This document shows, in pieces, positions 20,674 through 61,463 of a DNA stretch of 64,000 nt. Made by a program: the position numbers and the translations under genes. Position 1 is the stretch's first letter. Each line of letters starts with the position of its first letter. Origin of the DNA: Flaviaesturariibacter aridisoli (GTDB lineage: Bacteria > Bacteroidota > Bacteroidia > Chitinophagales > Chitinophagaceae); contig NZ_SKFH01000016.1 of assembly GCF_004343705.1 (NCBI RefSeq), forward strand, positions 1 to 64,000. Direction: 5' to 3'. The notes under the pieces are model-generated. The model searched no databases. It was not told the DNA's origin and saw only the letters and a list, made by a program, of their open reading frames with translations.

Positions 20674-20698
20674 AGACGCACATAGTGCGTCTCTACGG
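20674..20698 (+). repeat. REP-like palindrome, distant copy
   Basis: AGACGCACATAGTGCGTCTC followed by TACGG matches the palindromes around the RAYT gene at 38.7-39.5 kb, but lies 18 kb away. Confidence 0.75.
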
Positions 20699-37422: not shown

Positions 37423-37534
37423 GGCGCAATATTTATTGAATAATCAATATTGAATATTGCATAAGTACTTTGTCGACCGACCAGACCCTATTCAATAAAC
37501 ATTATTCAATAGATATTATTCAATAGCATTTCCC
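37423..37534. repeat. TTCAATA/TATTGAA word element
   Basis: TATTTATTGAATAATCAATA on the left and TATTCAATAAACATTATTCA on the right are inverted low-complexity arms. The same family occurs at 6990-7080 and 40690-40790. The right arm continues up to the corA start. Confidence 0.65.
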
Positions 37535-38632
37535 ATGGCGTCCCGCAACTACCTCCGCTTCCTGCTTCCCGACGTGCTTTTCGGACCGAAGCGCACGAAG
37601 GAAATCCTGCACGTGAACCCCACCGTGGAGCGCCTGCCCACGCCCGTGACCGCCATCAGTGTTTACGTGTACAACTACGATGGGCAGGCCATGCACGAAC
37701 ATCGCTTTGAAAAGGTGGATGACATCTTTTCGTGCAAGAACAACGGGCTCATTTCCTGGATCAATATCGACGGCATCCGCAAAGAAGATGTGGAAAAAGT
37801 ATGCGCCCATTTCGACATCCACCCGCTGCTGGCCGAAGACATCCAGAGCCGCGGGCAGCGCCCCAAGATGGACGAGGTGGACGGCATTCTCTACTGCCTG
37901 CTCAACATGCTTTATTTCGACCCCAAGGAATCCAGCGTGGACCATGAGCAGGTAAGCATCGTGCTCGGCCGCGACTTCGTGATCACCTTCCAGGAAGACC
38001 CCGCGCGCGACGTGTTTACGCCCGTGCGCGAACGCCTCAAGATGGTCAACTCCAAGCTGCGCCAGCGCGGCGCCGACTACCTCTGCTACTCGCTGCTCGA
38101 CGTTATTGTGGACAACTACTTCCTGGTGATGGAAAAGCTCGGCGAACGCATCGAGGAGCTCGAGGAGGAAGTGGTGCGCAACAACAGCAACATCACCATG
38201 GCGCGGATCAACAACCTGCGCAAGGAGCTGATCGTGCTCAAGCGCAACATCATGCCCGTGCGCGACCTCGTGAGCAACATCATCCGCAGCGAAAGCGGCC
38301 TGCTGGAAGAAAGCACCAACAAGTATTTCAAAGACGTATACGACCATATCGTACAGGCCGCGGACCTCTCCGAAAACTACCGCGATATCATGATGTCGAT
38401 GCAGGATCTCTACATCAACAACGTCAACCTGCGCATGAACGAAGTGATGAAGGTGATGGCGGTGGTTACCTGCCTGCTGGCGCCCGCCACCGTTATCGGC
38501 GGCATCTTCGGAATGAACTTCGAGCAGATCCCGCTGCTGCACAACAAATGGGGCTTCCTCATTTCTGTTTGCCTGATGCTCCTCATCCCGGTATGGATGA
38601 TCGGTGTGTTCCGCAGAAGGGGCTGGTTTTAA
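37535..38632 (+). CDS. corA: Magnesium/cobalt transporter CorA
   Basis: A 365-residue pentameric divalent-cation channel of the inner membrane. The long cytoplasmic N-terminal domain (residues 1-~300) is followed by two C-terminal helices, with the selectivity motif GMN in FGMNFEQIP between them (about residues 328-330). The N-terminal domain has the HPLLAEDIQ and RMNEVMKV helices typical of CorA. The length is usual. Magnesium is the likely main substrate. Confidence 0.93.
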   Translation: MASRNYLRFLLPDVLFGPKRTKEILHVNPTVERLPTPVTAISVYVYNYDGQAMHEHRFEKVDDIFSCKNNGLISWINIDGIRKEDVEKVCAHFDIHPLLAEDIQSRGQRPKMDEVDGILYCLLNMLYFDPKESSVDHEQVSIVLGRDFVITFQEDPARDVFTPVRERLKMVNSKLRQRGADYLCYSLLDVIVDNYFLVMEKLGERIEELEEEVVRNNSNITMARINNLRKELIVLKRNIMPVRDLVSNIIRSESGLLEESTNKYFKDVYDHIVQAADLSENYRDIMMSMQDLYINNVNLRMNEVMKVMAVVTCLLAPATVIGGIFGMNFEQIPLLHNKWGFLISVCLMLLIPVWMIGVFRRRGWF

Positions 38633-38675
38633 TCCCGGGGGATGGGTGGCGGCACTATGGGTGCGTTTTTATAAA

Positions 38676-38701
38676 AGAGACGCATATGATGCGTCTCTAC
38701 G
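38676..38701 (+). repeat. REP-like palindrome upstream of the RAYT gene
   Basis: AGAGACGCATATGATGCGTC followed by TCTACG. It lies between corA and the RAYT gene, 86 bases before the RAYT start, and differs from the other copies in its central bases only. Confidence 0.8.
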
Positions 38702-38786
38702 TGGGGAAAAAAACGGGAATTCCTGTTGGTTTTCACATGGCTGCCACCTACGTCGTTTTGAATTTTGGTGCTACAAACGGCGTATC

Positions 38787-39335
38787 ATGGAAGAACGTTT
38801 TCGCAATAAATACCGAATCGGAAGCGCCCGGCTGAAGGGATACGATTATAGCCGGGGTGGATATTATTTCGTCACCATTTGCACAAAGAACCGGGAGCGG
38901 TTTTTCGGAACGCTGACCAACGGGAAAATGCAGCCATCCCCTGTAGGACGTATCGCTGAAGATTATTGGATGCGTATACCGGAACATTTCCCGTTTGCAC
39001 AGGTGGAGGCCTTTGTGTTGATGCCGGATCACGTGCACGGTATTCTTTTTTTCAAGAACCAATCTATTCTTCAGCAGGACACATTTCCGGCCGACGATGC
39101 GTCGGAAGTGACGGTTCCGAAAGAAAAAGGAGCATCGGCCGGAGGTATTTTCGGCCCACAGTCAAACAACCTCGCTTCGGTAATCCGCAATTACAAAGGT
39201 GCCGTGAGCTCTTATGCCAAACACAACGGCATTCCCTTTCAATGGCACGCACGTTTTCATGATCGGATCATCCGTTCGCCGAAAGGCCTGGAGGCCGTGC
39301 GCCGGTATATTGAAAACAATCCGGCGAAGGGATGA
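38787..39335 (+). CDS. REP-associated tyrosine transposase (RAYT, Y1-type)
   Basis: A 182-residue single-strand HUH-type transposase of the IS200-like Y1 superfamily. Motifs: RGGYYFVTICTKNRERFFG at the start, the HUH equivalent VLMPDHVHGIL at about residues 75-85, and the C-terminal FHDRIIR then RRYIENNPAKG, whose tyrosine corresponds to the catalytic residue in known RAYTs. Such enzymes bind and cut REP palindromes and are usually single-copy and not self-mobile. Four REP-like palindromes flank this gene (one upstream, three downstream) and two more copies lie elsewhere in the window. The start at 38787 precedes the conserved region by about 20 residues. Confidence 0.9.
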   Translation: MEERFRNKYRIGSARLKGYDYSRGGYYFVTICTKNRERFFGTLTNGKMQPSPVGRIAEDYWMRIPEHFPFAQVEAFVLMPDHVHGILFFKNQSILQQDTFPADDASEVTVPKEKGASAGGIFGPQSNNLASVIRNYKGAVSSYAKHNGIPFQWHARFHDRIIRSPKGLEAVRRYIENNPAKG

Positions 39336-40842: not shown

Positions 40843-43002
40843 TTAATAGAACTTGGCGCGGTAGTCTTTGATGCTGGCGGCTTTTTTCAGGGCCTCGATG
40901 GGGCTGGCCTGGCCGGCGCGCTGGCGGGCGTCCTGCATCAGCAGGGCGCGTTGCTGCTCGATGCCGGCGGCTTCGGCGGCGGCGGCGCTCACGTTGTCTA
41001 CACGGAGCACGTATACGGCACCCTGGCCTTCGATGGCTTCATTCACCACCTTGCCTTTGTTGGCGGGGTTGAAGGAAGCACCGATCACTTTGTACTCGAA
41101 GCCGAGCACGTTGTTGTTGCCATTGAAGTGCAGGCTGTCGGCGGTGGCGATGGGCTGGTTCACCTTGGAGGCTACCGCTTCGAGGGTGCTGATCGTACCG
41201 ATATTCTTCTTGATCTGCTCGGCTTTTTTCTTGTTGCGCAGCACGGGCTCGAGGGCAGCGCGGGCCTGGGCAACGCTCTGCACACCGGCGGGGTTGATGG
41301 CGGTAACCACGGCCACAATGTACCCACCCGAGGTGAGGCGTTGAACGGGGAGCACCTCGCCTTTGCTGGCGGTGAATACTTCTTTCACCAGCGGGCGCGA
41401 GGTACCGGCACCCGGGATGTTGAAGTCCAGTTCGCGCAGGTCGGCCGTCTGCTTGTTGATGCCTTTGGCGCGGAGGTTCTTGTCGTAATTCTGGTTGAAC
41501 GATTCGAGGCTGCGGCTGTCGGCGGCAAACTGCGAAGCGGCGGTGTTGGCGTCGTTCTCGGTCTGGTCGCCGGTTACGATGGGGCGGGCCATGTAAGCGA
41601 TCTTGTACGCCATGTCGGAGCCGCGGGCGCCGAGCACTTCGATGATGTGGTAGCCGAAGTCGGTCTTTACCACGCCGCGCTGGCCGGGGCTGTGGGTAAA
41701 GATGAAGTCGTTGAACTGGGGCACCATGCGGCCGAAGCCGATGCTGTCGTATACGCCGCCCTTGTCTTTCGAACCCGGGTCGTCGGAATATTTCGTTACG
41801 AGGCTGTCGAAGCGGGCGCCGCTGTTGATGGCGTTGAGGATCGAGTCGGCGAGCGTCTTGGCGGCGGCGTCTTCACGGCCGGGCACCTGCTGGCCCGACT
41901 GCGGGTCTACGCGGGCTACGCTGAGCAGGATGTGCCGCACCTTCACGGTGTCGGCGATGTTCTTGGCTTCCACGATGCGCGACAGCACCAGGTACGACTG
42001 GTTGTTCTGCTGGTTGCGGTCGAGGTAAGGACCGTAGGTCACGCCCACGCCGGCGGCGAGGATGGAGTCTTTGTTGGGCTGCTGCATCTGCTTCTTGCTC
42101 ACGAGGCCGTCGTAGTAAGGCATCGTGCTGCTGTTGACGGCAGTGAACTGTGCATAATTGGTCGTGGTGTCGAAGCCGGCGCGGAGCTTTTCGAGCTCGC
42201 TGCGCGTAGCGGCGGTGTCGGCGGCGGTGGGCAGGGTGGGGAAGAGCACGTAGGAAATGCTGCGGGTCTCTTCTTTCTGCTCGTACTCGGTGCGGTGCTT
42301 CTTGATGTACTGGTCGATCTCGGCGTCGGTCACCTTCACGGCGGAGTCGGAGACCGTGGTGTACGGAATCGCTACATAAGAGGCGCGGGCCACGAGGGCG
42401 TTGTCGGCGGTCTGCTTTTCCACCAGCCACTTGGGCATATAGATGGTGTTGCTCAGCAGGGCGCTGTATTTTTCGGAAGCGCGTTGCTTGCGCAGGCTTT
42501 CAAAGTAGTTGGCGAGTTGCTCCTTGTCTTCGGGCTTGCCTTGCTTCTTGATCTGGTTCACGGCCTGCACGGCGAGGGCGCCGTTGTACTGACCGGTGGA
42601 GTCGGTAAAGCGCTGGCGCAGGTCGGCGGGCGGGTTGGCGCCGAACAGGTAGTCATTCATTTCCTTGGTGGTCACGGTGATGCCCAGCTTTTCGTACTGG
42701 TCGGCCAGCAGGTTCTCGGCGATCTCCTGGTTCCAGGTCTGCTCAATGAGGCCCTGGCGGCCGGCGTCGCCCACGTTGTAGCCCTGGGCCTTCTGCATGT
42801 CCTCCATGTTCTTCAGCTTGGCCTCGAACTCGGTAAGCTCAACTTTCTTTCCGTTGATCTTACCCACGGTGGTCGTGTTGCCGCTGAAGAGGTTGCTGCG
42901 GCTCGAAAAGGCGTCCATCAAAATGAAGCCCAGGAGGGACACGGCAATGAGCACAACCATCAAACGTGCGTACTTGTCCCTGATGTTCTGAATAACTGAC
43001 AT
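40843..43002 (-). CDS. PpiD-like periplasmic foldase (SurA_N and rotamase domains)
   Basis: A 719-residue membrane-anchored chaperone/peptidyl-prolyl isomerase. A single N-terminal helix (residues about 13-31, MVVLIAVSLLGFILMDAF) anchors it to the inner membrane. A SurA_N-type helical domain follows (to about 230), then a parvulin rotamase domain at about 340-460 (VRHILLS...FDSLVTKYSDDPGSKDKGG...FNDFIF) and a C-terminal helical/second PPIase-like section. It would assist folding of exported proteins. The conserved rotamase residues (H, D, P of the signature) are partly present, so enzyme activity is plausible but not certain. Confidence 0.9.
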   Translation of the reverse strand: MSVIQNIRDKYARLMVVLIAVSLLGFILMDAFSSRSNLFSGNTTTVGKINGKKVELTEFEAKLKNMEDMQKAQGYNVGDAGRQGLIEQTWNQEIAENLLADQYEKLGITVTTKEMNDYLFGANPPADLRQRFTDSTGQYNGALAVQAVNQIKKQGKPEDKEQLANYFESLRKQRASEKYSALLSNTIYMPKWLVEKQTADNALVARASYVAIPYTTVSDSAVKVTDAEIDQYIKKHRTEYEQKEETRSISYVLFPTLPTAADTAATRSELEKLRAGFDTTTNYAQFTAVNSSTMPYYDGLVSKKQMQQPNKDSILAAGVGVTYGPYLDRNQQNNQSYLVLSRIVEAKNIADTVKVRHILLSVARVDPQSGQQVPGREDAAAKTLADSILNAINSGARFDSLVTKYSDDPGSKDKGGVYDSIGFGRMVPQFNDFIFTHSPGQRGVVKTDFGYHIIEVLGARGSDMAYKIAYMARPIVTGDQTENDANTAASQFAADSRSLESFNQNYDKNLRAKGINKQTADLRELDFNIPGAGTSRPLVKEVFTASKGEVLPVQRLTSGGYIVAVVTAINPAGVQSVAQARAALEPVLRNKKKAEQIKKNIGTISTLEAVASKVNQPIATADSLHFNGNNNVLGFEYKVIGASFNPANKGKVVNEAIEGQGAVYVLRVDNVSAAAAEAAGIEQQRALLMQDARQRAGQASPIEALKKAASIKDYRAKFY

Positions 43003-43117
43003 AGGTGGAGTTTCGGTATTTATTTTATTACAGAGTGGGCAAATTTAGGGGTTTCGGGGTTATCAACAAATTGTGGAAAACCGCAATACGGGCCGTTTTT
43101 TAGGGCTTTTCGCCGGG

Positions 43118-43155
43118 TCGTGAGGCGTCGGGCGTGAGGCGTGAGGCGTGAGCCG
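43118..43155. repeat. GCGTGAGG half-element
   Basis: Four or five GTGAGGCGT words occur in a row with no inverted partner. The family is that of 29976-30099. It borders the left edge of the repeat array at 43.18 kb. Confidence 0.55.
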
Positions 43156-43169
43156 TCAGTGGTCTGGTT

Positions 43170-43403
43170 CCTTTATGCAAAGGATCCTCTTTCCGCGGCC
43201 TACAGGGTGGGGGACGGACAAAAAAGATCTTTTTTGGGGAAATAACAGGGGGGAGAAGGGCAGAAAAGATCTTTTTTCCCCAACCTACAGGGGGGTGGAA
43301 GCCCGAAAAAGATCTTTTTTCCCCAACCTACAGGGGGGTGGAAGCCCAAAAAAGATCTTTTTTCGGCAAACTACAGGGGGGCAGGCCCAAAAACCTTTTT
43401 CGG
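43170..43403. repeat. 43-bp tandem repeats centred on GATC palindromes
   Basis: The GATC centres begin at 43183, 43226, 43268, 43311 and 43354, that is 43, 42, 43 and 43 bases apart; a degenerate sixth (AAAAACCTTTTT) follows near 43390. The central core of the best units is AAAAAAGATCTTTTTT, followed by CCCCAACCTACAGGGGGG. A period of 43 bases is four helical turns, so the A/T tracts lie on one face of the helix. The region has no gene. Confidence 0.85.
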
Positions 43404-43514
43404 ACTTCTGCCCGGGGGAAAGGCCTGCCGGGAAAATTTTGGGGGCTGTCGATCTTATTATATGGTGCAGGGAAATGCATTTCGGATATTCATCGGGAGA
43501 CGCACGTGTATAGC

Positions 43515-43540
43515 GAGACGCACATGGTGCGTCTCTACGG
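43515..43540 (+). repeat. REP-like palindrome in the origin-like region
   Basis: GAGACGCACATGGTGCGTCT followed by CTACGG, a near-exact copy of those around the RAYT gene, with a half copy GAGACGCACG at 43497-43506 beside it. Confidence 0.8.
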
Positions 43541-43549
43541 GGACCGTTT

Positions 43550-43934
43550 TTCCCTGTGGATAACGGTGGAAAACCGGGGCATAACCCCCGTGGAACGGGT
43601 GGGTGAAACGTGCACGCGGGTGGAACAACCGCGTCGCCGGCGGTCGGGGTTCGAAAGCACGTGGGTTATCCGCAACTTATCCCGGTCTCATTCACAACCC
43701 GAAAAAAGACCATATGTCCGGAACGGTTTTCACAGGGCTCTATCCACAGGGTGGTGAAAAAGAGGAGGAATGAAGCGTCACCCGGTACCTTTGCTGGGGA
43801 TAAACGGTGGATAGCGGTGTATAACTGCACCCTTTTTGTAAACTCCCGAATGGGCGGAACCGTTATCCCCAAATCCACAGCCCTAATAGTAATAGGTCTC
43901 TTTTAAATAAATAAGGAATACTATAAGTTATTAT
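43550..43934. other. Candidate replication origin: DnaA-box cluster and AT-rich end
   Basis: The region contains TGTGGATAA at 43555-43563 (exact reverse complement of TTATCCACA), TTATCCGCA at 43666-43674, CTATCCACA at 43740-43748, TGGGGATAA at 43795-43803 and TTATCCCCA at 43863-43871, each differing from the DnaA-box consensus at one position at most, plus weaker copies. It ends in an AT-rich stretch (43885-43934) that contains TTTTAAATAAATAAGG. There is no gene between 43003 and 43934. A dnaA gene is not in the window. Whether this is the chromosomal origin is an inference. Confidence 0.55.
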
Positions 43935-44947
<1,013 letters not shown>

Positions 44948-44948
<1 letters not shown>

Positions 44949-60976: not shown

Positions 60977-61426
60977 ATGAACTCCTCTGCCATTCACTTT
61001 CACTACACGGATCAGCGCTTCCACTTCACCAAACGTACCGAACTGAAGGCTTTCCTGCTGAAGTTAGCCAAGGCAGAGGGGCAGAAGGTGGGTGGGATCA
61101 ATTACATCTTCTGTTCCGATGCCTATTTGCTGGAGATAAACCAGCAGCACCTCAACCACGATACCTATACGGACATCATAACCTTCCCGTACAATGCTCC
61201 GGGTGCGCCCATTGAATCGGACATCTATATCAGTATCGATCGCGTTCGGGAGAATGCTCAAAACTTCGCGGTTCCCTTTGCCGCTGAGCTCTACCGGGTC
61301 ATGTTTCATGGTTTATTACATCTCTGCGGGTATAAAGACAAGTCAAAGGTGGAACAGGCCAAAATGCGCGAGCGGGAGGATTACTGGTTGAAGCGCTACA
61401 CCGGTTCCACGTGGAACAAGGGATGA
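60977..61426 (+). CDS. ybeY: rRNA maturation endoribonuclease YbeY
   Basis: A 149-residue zinc-dependent ribonuclease for 16S rRNA processing and ribosome quality control. The zinc-site motif reads HGLLHLCGYKDKSKVEQAKM, where the third histidine of the usual H-x3-H-x5-H (HGxLHLxGYDH) is not present and an Asp/Lys pair stands in its place; I recall this as common in Bacteroidota. The start MNSSAIHF is chosen over an earlier ATG. The last codons carry the first of two parS-like palindromes. Confidence 0.9.
   Translation: MNSSAIHFHYTDQRFHFTKRTELKAFLLKLAKAEGQKVGGINYIFCSDAYLLEINQQHLNHDTYTDIITFPYNAPGAPIESDIYISIDRVRENAQNFAVPFAAELYRVMFHGLLHLCGYKDKSKVEQAKMREREDYWLKRYTGSTWNKG
61404..61417. other. parS-like site 1 in the ybeY 3' end
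   Basis: GTTCCACGTGGAAC is a perfect 14-base palindrome that matches the ParB-binding parS core (TGTTNCACGTGNAACA). It lies within the last codons of ybeY and encodes GSTWN there. A second copy lies 46 bases away. Confidence 0.75.
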
Positions 61427-61449: not shown

Positions 61450-61463
61450 GTTCCACGTGGAAC
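61450..61463. other. parS-like site 2 upstream of mnmG
   Basis: A second exact GTTCCACGTGGAAC, 32 bases after the end of the first, in the ybeY-mnmG gap. The spacing of the two starts is 46 bases. Two exact copies of a 14-base word so close together are very unlikely by chance. Confidence 0.75.

Follow-up and report, generated by a model that had tools for sequence, protein, structure and literature searches.

We assign the intergenic region at positions 43003–43934 of the analyzed Flaviaesturariibacter aridisoli DNA, with a probability of about 0.94, as the chromosomal replication origin (oriC) of this bacterium, of a Chitinophagaceae type. An origin had been proposed at this place by a sequence-only reading of the window, a 64,000-bp stretch that corresponds to bases 1–64000 of contig C16 in an 84-contig draft assembly of 4.37 Mb. 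For nadA, the closest named matches came from Chitinophagales/Chitinophagaceae. Most tests on relatives supported the proposal: a module of DnaA boxes and trinucleotides is conserved, GC skew reverses at this place in several genomes, 13 of 15 genomes have parS-like sites, and the module persists where nadA is missing or lies elsewhere.

Features of the region and its surroundings (window coordinates, strand):
40843–43002, minus strand: gene for a SurA/PpiD-like peptidyl-prolyl isomerase, neighbor on the opposite flank of the gap
43003–43934, no strand: intergenic region, proposed oriC, based on box density and on boxes and module conserved in relatives
43060–43068, plus strand: DnaA box TTATCAACA, one mismatch
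43072–43080, minus strand: DnaA box TTTTCCACA, one mismatch
43179–43363, no strand: array with GATC centers at 42–43-bp spacing, four perfect AAAAGATCTTTT palindromes and one degenerate unit
43555–43563, minus strand: exact DnaA box TTATCCACA, the sole exact box in 64 kb
43666–43674, plus strand: DnaA box TTATCCGCA, one mismatch
43740–43748, plus strand: DnaA box CTATCCACA, one mismatch
43795–43803, minus strand: DnaA box TTATCCCCA, one mismatch
43863–43871, plus strand: core DnaA box 1, TTATCCCCA, one mismatch (at most two mismatches in 35 of the 47 family loci used)
43871–43879, plus strand: core DnaA box 2, AAATCCACA, two mismatches (at most three mismatches in 44 of the 47 family loci used)
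43880–43882, no strand: GC spacer GCC, with equal spacing in relatives
43883–43894, minus strand: four DnaA-trio-like trinucleotide steps, top strand CTA ATA GTA ATA, bottom strand 3'-GAT TAT CAT TAT-5'
43890–43934, no strand: AT-rich stretch (82% A+T), proposed unwinding element, adjoining the boxes and AT-richest in the gap
43935–44948, plus strand: nadA, quinolinate synthase, a neighbor not considered part of the mechanism
61404–61417, no strand: parS-like palindrome GTTCCACGTGGAAC at the end of ybeY
61450–61463, no strand: second parS-like palindrome GTTCCACGTGGAAC, between ybeY and mnmG/gidA

A box-dense intergenic region upstream of nadA

The gap spans 932 bp up to the nadA start codon at 43935, which bears out the earlier description of a gene-free stretch ending just before nadA, then given as 43003–43933 (931 bp). 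A scan for sigma-70-type promoters returned none (0.9 expected), and terminator-like sites numbered three versus 1.3 expected. DnaA boxes with at most one mismatch clustered above chance, with seven in the 932 bp compared to an expectation of 0.16, the mean of first-order Markov copies of the gap (maximum of three among 2,000 copies). The window as a whole contained 21 such boxes including these seven, and outside the neighborhood of the gap no 500-bp stretch of the 64 kb held more than two. The sequence-only reading had listed the exact box at 43555–43563 and four one-mismatch boxes at 43666, 43740, 43795 and 43863, and had noted a box density unmatched elsewhere in the window; all of this was recovered, together with two boxes at 43060 and 43072 that it had overlooked. 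Across the whole F. aridisoli genome, the exact word TTATCCACA occurred 14 times versus 19 for the reversed control and is, therefore, not enriched genome-wide. A Chitinophaga locus near nadA (L058) contained 29 boxes with at most one mismatch, eight of them exact, outside the 1.5-kb upstream region.

An unwinding-type module conserved in many Chitinophagaceae

At its nadA end, the gap carries a module in the order TTATCCCCA, AAATCCACA, GCC, CTA ATA GTA ATA and AT-rich DNA, in which core box 2 begins 8 bp after the start of core box 1. The AT-rich tail, previously placed at 43885–43934, held up at 43890–43934 and ties with a stretch at 37427 as the 45-bp A+T maximum of the window. This layout shares with the basal unwinding system (BUS) of B. 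subtilis oriC, as described in the accessible excerpts of PMC6669920, PMC10721633 and PMC8287927, two co-oriented boxes, a short GC spacer and at least four NAN steps followed by AT-rich DNA. The BUS rule of PMC8287927 calls for two paired boxes, one with no more than two mismatches and the other with no more than four, a spacer of at most 16 bp and at least three consecutive NAN trios. The window agrees with this rule: its boxes have one and two mismatches, box 2 is separated from the first trio by 3 bp and box 1 by 11 bp, and four NAN trios follow one another. Unlike in the B. subtilis BUS, the two core boxes share one base and the module is not linked to dnaA. A further difference concerns the trios themselves, for which the same excerpts give 3'-GAT-5' as the B. 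subtilis preference, whereas T or C starts trios 2–4 here on the expected strand. For C. difficile, PMC7561715 gives the trio block as CACCTACTACTATTACTACTATGA, corresponding to 3'-GAT/AAT-5' on the same strand.

We searched 147 family genomes with the module pattern CACANNNNTAATARTARTR. At least one match was present in 98 of them, giving 118 matches in total versus 15 for the reversed control; F. aridisoli has a single match, at 43876–43894. The module lies 39–172 bp upstream of the nadA match and on the same strand in 82 of the 147 genomes, and G005 carries it at that place on the opposite strand. No exact match was found in 49 genomes, including seven of the 12 without nadA; among these 49, a variant occupies the same place in G097 and G126 and another stands elsewhere in G030.

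Module segments were found in 72 of 110 loci and in none of the other 38, many of which come from other families. Of the 72, 47 were aligned, 22 were omitted (Sphingobacteriaceae-type or chance alignments, and L022 with its other spacing) and three were left out as duplicates, one of which, L072, is yet distinct and shows the same pattern as the 47. The search pattern itself fixed CAC, TAATA and the following A/G, and with them the middle base of the first two trios, so conservation at these positions is not evidence. Three columns left free by the pattern, at offsets 6 (T), 7 (A) and 9 (T), are invariant in the 47 loci, all of which contain four or more steps that retain the middle base. On the expected (bottom) strand of the window, 3'-GAT-5' occurs only at trio 1 of four, and trios 2–4 begin with T or C. 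Across the family, steps 2–4 likewise start with T or C on this strand, with step 4, free of the search pattern, doing so in 47 of 47 loci. Sphingobacteriaceae-type segments showed no regular three-base repeat.

The module occurs independently of nadA

Thirty-five of the 118 matches lie away from nadA, and 14 of these were inspected. The module was accompanied by boxes in seven (G067, G016, G105, G119, G124, G092 and G090) and by one box in G132, while six (G136, G056, G104 at 920641, G035, G042 and G052) resembled chance matches, lying in reading frames or having no box cluster. A nadA match is missing in 12 of the 147 family genomes; five of the 12 (G067, G016, G105, G119 and G132) have the module next to the isomerase gene, accompanied within 700 bp by one to four boxes. 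The module also adjoins this gene in G124, where nadA is on another contig. The nadA region of G092 has neither box nor module, the latter standing elsewhere with seven boxes within 700 bp. In G030, nadA and the module share a contig but are ~330 kb apart; the module is also away from the isomerase gene, in a 3-kb stretch that contains 16 boxes. A nadA operator was rejected because the module exists without nadA.

Several further loci were recorded. L269 (G090:C37:180993) has the module on a contig other than that of nadA, with five boxes within 700 bp, and is perhaps a moved origin. A class-wide search with a sequence model matched 26 of 197 genomes, including four family members; the matches outside the family were mostly weak. 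Among ten class-wide matches examined, none stood beside nadA (found in three of the ten) or the isomerase gene (found in all ten). L276 (G233) and L277 (G162), from two other Bacteroidia families, contain a similar box and TAATA module with DnaA boxes, in genomes without a nadA match; they look like origins in other settings. The G162 module adjoins ybeY-like and nadD-like genes; in the window, genes of these kinds are found ~17 kb from the origin. In both searched genomes of genus g13, the nadA alignments contain one in-frame TAA (G103:C1:193440-194429 and G013:C2:1330483-1331472).

GC skew and parS-like sites in relatives

GC skew was determined at fourfold degenerate sites per gene strand and averaged. 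G017 (single contig, 4.90 Mb, 20 stretches) was negative in all stretches sampled between the contig start and nadA, positive in those spanning 2.45–4.2 Mb and again slightly negative at 4.7 Mb. At the level of genes, nadA and nine sampled far-side genes were negative, and seven genes past the gap, from 2376323, were positive (0.02 to 0.13). G106 (single contig, 40 stretches) showed a less clean turn from negative to positive at the same place (4046216–4046668), with seven negative, two positive and one zero value for ten genes on the nadA side and seven positive and one zero value for eight genes past the gap; a short stretch at the contig start was negative again. We further compared the flanks in ten single-contig genomes as the right-minus-left skew difference. 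Positive differences were obtained for G106 (+0.234), G126 (+0.120), G049 (+0.108), G104 (+0.107), G097 (+0.100) and G109 (+0.099) and small changes for G145 (+0.039, one stretch per side) and G021 (+0.025). The six largest differences had p < 0.05 on the genes of at least one strand, and of both strands in G106 and G109. The single-contig congener G004 showed no skew change (−0.009), and G078 changed in the opposite sense (−0.276) with both strands differing, in a genome along which skew jumps. The window, part of a draft assembly, showed no skew flip. Skew thus backs the site for much of the family and gives no signal in the genus of F. aridisoli.

Resembling the parS/ParB sites near bacterial origins, palindromes of the type GTTCCACGTGGAAC or GTTTCACGTGAAAC occur near the proposed origin, one to four per genome where found, a likeness that concerns the DNA palindromes only. 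F. aridisoli has two occurrences of GTTCCACGTGGAAC, at 61404 and 61450, and one looser match, GTTGCACGTGCAAC, on another contig (C2:76768). The search covered 15 genomes, 13 with GTTCCACGTGGAAC and nine (seven shared) with the wider GTTNCACGTGNAAC, the latter leaving out G017, G049, G097, G104, G021 and G078. With either C or T accepted at the variable position, 13 of the 15 genomes had sites, 29 in total, all 2.9–17.6 kb from the module or, for G145, where the exact module was not found, from nadA. The distance was 4.5 kb in the congener G095 and 3.6–4.2 kb from the moved module of G030; G004 and G126 had no parS-like site. The reversed control gave no match with GTTCCACGTGGAAC and, with GTTNCACGTGNAAC, one palindromic match each in G004 and G106. 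On the basis of the consensus, we take the palindromes at 61404 and 61450 and the sites in relatives to be putative parS sites.

A local GATC array

The sequence-only reading had also described five units with GATC centers 42–43 bases apart. The spacing was confirmed, with centers at 43183, 43226, 43268, 43311 and 43354 (43, 42, 43 and 43 bp) and a further GATC at 43451, but one of the five units, the first, is degenerate; the remaining four are perfect AAAAGATCTTTT palindromes, compared to 0.13 expected in the window. The idea that the array belongs to the origin was not supported. Its exact 14-mer AAAAGATCTTTTTT, restricted to the array in the F. aridisoli genome, is missing from the origin regions of two congeners, being absent from G004 and present once in G095 on another contig, and the array was for this reason rejected as a conserved origin element. 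As it is not conserved, a role in initiation is unproven; the array could be a recent local duplication. One strand of it folds somewhat better than shuffled sequences (z = −2.75, with one of 200 equally good), which was discounted as a signal because repeats alone would yield such folding. The word AGATCT, termed an ATP-DnaA box in the accessible part of PMC10225481, is present in four array units and also at 14 other window positions and was, therefore, given no weight as evidence for ATP-DnaA boxes.

The dnaA locus and DnaA residues

In F. aridisoli, dnaA is located on contig C31 and, thus, not linked to the proposed origin, and in 11 single-contig relatives it lies at least 0.4 Mb from nadA. 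Origins in Bacteroidota need not adjoin dnaA and have mostly been located by skew plots. A dnaA-linked origin with better boxes, a result that had been named as contradicting the proposal, was not found: the 4.4-kb dnaA locus is box-poor, with two one-mismatch boxes, and an origin there was rejected on these grounds.

According to the accessible part of PMC10721633, Arg202 and Glu228 of B. subtilis DnaA contact the trio guanine, 3'-GA-5' is the preferred pair and changing all trios to 3'-AA-5' leads to a defect. Compared to B. subtilis DnaA (entry 8btg), the F. aridisoli protein keeps the adenine contact Asn187 and differs at the two other residues, with Ile aligned to Arg202 and Ala to Glu228. 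Among 20 further Bacteroidia DnaAs, 13 from the family and seven from outside it, 18 carry Ile at position 202, one Thr and one Gln; the residue at 228 is always Ala, Val, Ile or Met, and 17 retain Asn187. Including F. aridisoli, all 21 lack Arg or Lys at 202 and Glu or Asp at 228. Four comparisons were made outside Bacteroidia: the two positions are Arg and Glu in B. subtilis, T. maritima and A. aeolicus, and Lys and Glu in E. coli. Both A. aeolicus and E. coli have Gln where B. subtilis has Asn187.

Proposed mechanism and alternative readings

We infer that initiation in F. aridisoli would start with DnaA, provided by the dnaA gene elsewhere, loading onto the box cluster. A DnaA oligomer would then grow from the tandem boxes at 43863–43879 across the steps at 43883–43894, capturing one strand, whereupon the AT-rich DNA at 43890–43934 would melt, helicases would load and two forks would depart in opposite directions. 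Binding of ParB to the parS-like sites at 61.4 kb would allow segregation of the newly copied origin.

In 82 of 147 family genomes, the module lies upstream of nadA at a distance common for promoters. The region might instead regulate nadA or the divergent isomerase gene, with DnaA or another protein controlling transcription and the trinucleotide block belonging to a promoter. We consider this very improbable, since the module is present in five genomes without a nadA match and in G124 with nadA elsewhere, and since G092 and G030 have module and boxes away from nadA, in G030 also away from the isomerase gene. Moreover, neither a skew reversal nor parS-like sites would be expected of a promoter. 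Box clusters also exist for DnaA titration or regulation, as in datA and DARS of E. coli, and taken alone do not prove an origin; together with the lack of a skew change in the genus, this leaves a slight chance that the cluster serves such a role. The skew reversal at this place in several relatives, the unwinding-type module beside the boxes and the nearby parS-like sites argue against it and for an origin.

Another alternative accepts the origin and concerns the mechanism, so that its odds stand outside the sum shared by the readings above. On the top strand, 5'-TAA TAG TAA TAG-3' equals 3'-[G/A]AT-5', the published preference, inverted relative to the boxes, and DnaA might capture this strand. 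The variable top-strand base is indeed a purine in 47 of 47 loci at the step free of the search pattern. The boxes here presumably stand in the published B. subtilis orientation. Reversing box 6 or boxes 6/7 inactivated the B. subtilis origin according to the excerpts of PMC6669920, which speaks against an inverted arrangement. In addition, the guanine-reading residues of DnaA are replaced, so a guanine preference need not exist. Capture of the top strand appears unlikely. As trios 2–4 lack the preferred guanine, either Bacteroidia DnaA needs no guanine or the top strand is captured, and we favor the former, a guanine no longer needed, matching the lost Arg/Glu pair.

A broader and more tentative idea, to which we give somewhat less than even odds, is that the origin-opening code of Bacteroidia was retuned: DnaA may have lost its guanine-reading pair and the trios become 3'-[T/C]AT-5' with the adenine contact kept, so that the protein and its origin would have changed in concert, giving a trio code that varies between phyla. 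In the sequences compared, the change in trio bases alongside that in DnaA residues is a correlation. As the trio pattern was seen in Chitinophagaceae only and the Sphingobacteriaceae-type segments have no regular repeat, extending the idea to Bacteroidia as a whole relies on DnaA. Because both the motif and the proposed reading residues differ from the model, the system offers a natural test of how DnaA reads single-stranded origin DNA.

Relation to known origins and uses of the module

Chromosomal origins as a kind are known, as is a Bacteroidota origin apart from dnaA (PMC8994065, accessible part). This predicted origin, from Elizabethkingia meningoseptica, resembles the one proposed here in its few DnaA boxes (three reported), AT-rich elements and distance from dnaA; the portion of PMC8994065 available gives no neighboring gene and no comparison of relatives. 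A literature search that covered few subscription journals returned no origin placed at nadA, no DnaA-trios in Bacteroidota and no item pairing 'DnaA-trio' with 'Bacteroides'. The Bacteroidota trio pattern may possibly have been noticed earlier, as PMC8287927, to judge from its accessible part, covers nine phyla. The short conserved module marks the proposed origin at the base-pair level in many Chitinophagaceae, including draft assemblies and genomes with weak skew, and provides a defined fragment for replicating plasmids and for coverage-based growth estimates.

Other repeats in the window

An open reading frame at 38604–39335 encodes an MPDHVHG-type motif, known from REP-associated transposases; its last 206 residues had no Pfam match. 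Several copies of the palindrome GACGCACATGGTGCGTCTC flank this frame closely on both sides. The window contains ten strand matches to GACGCACATGGTGCGTCTC with at most three mismatches versus 0.03 expected, with copies at 20675, 38679, 39350, 39396, 39443 and, inside the origin gap, 43517–43535. The gap also includes a 7-bp tandem repeat of the GTGAGGC type (43112–43167), related copies of which are spread across the F. aridisoli genome and make up most of 79 matches.
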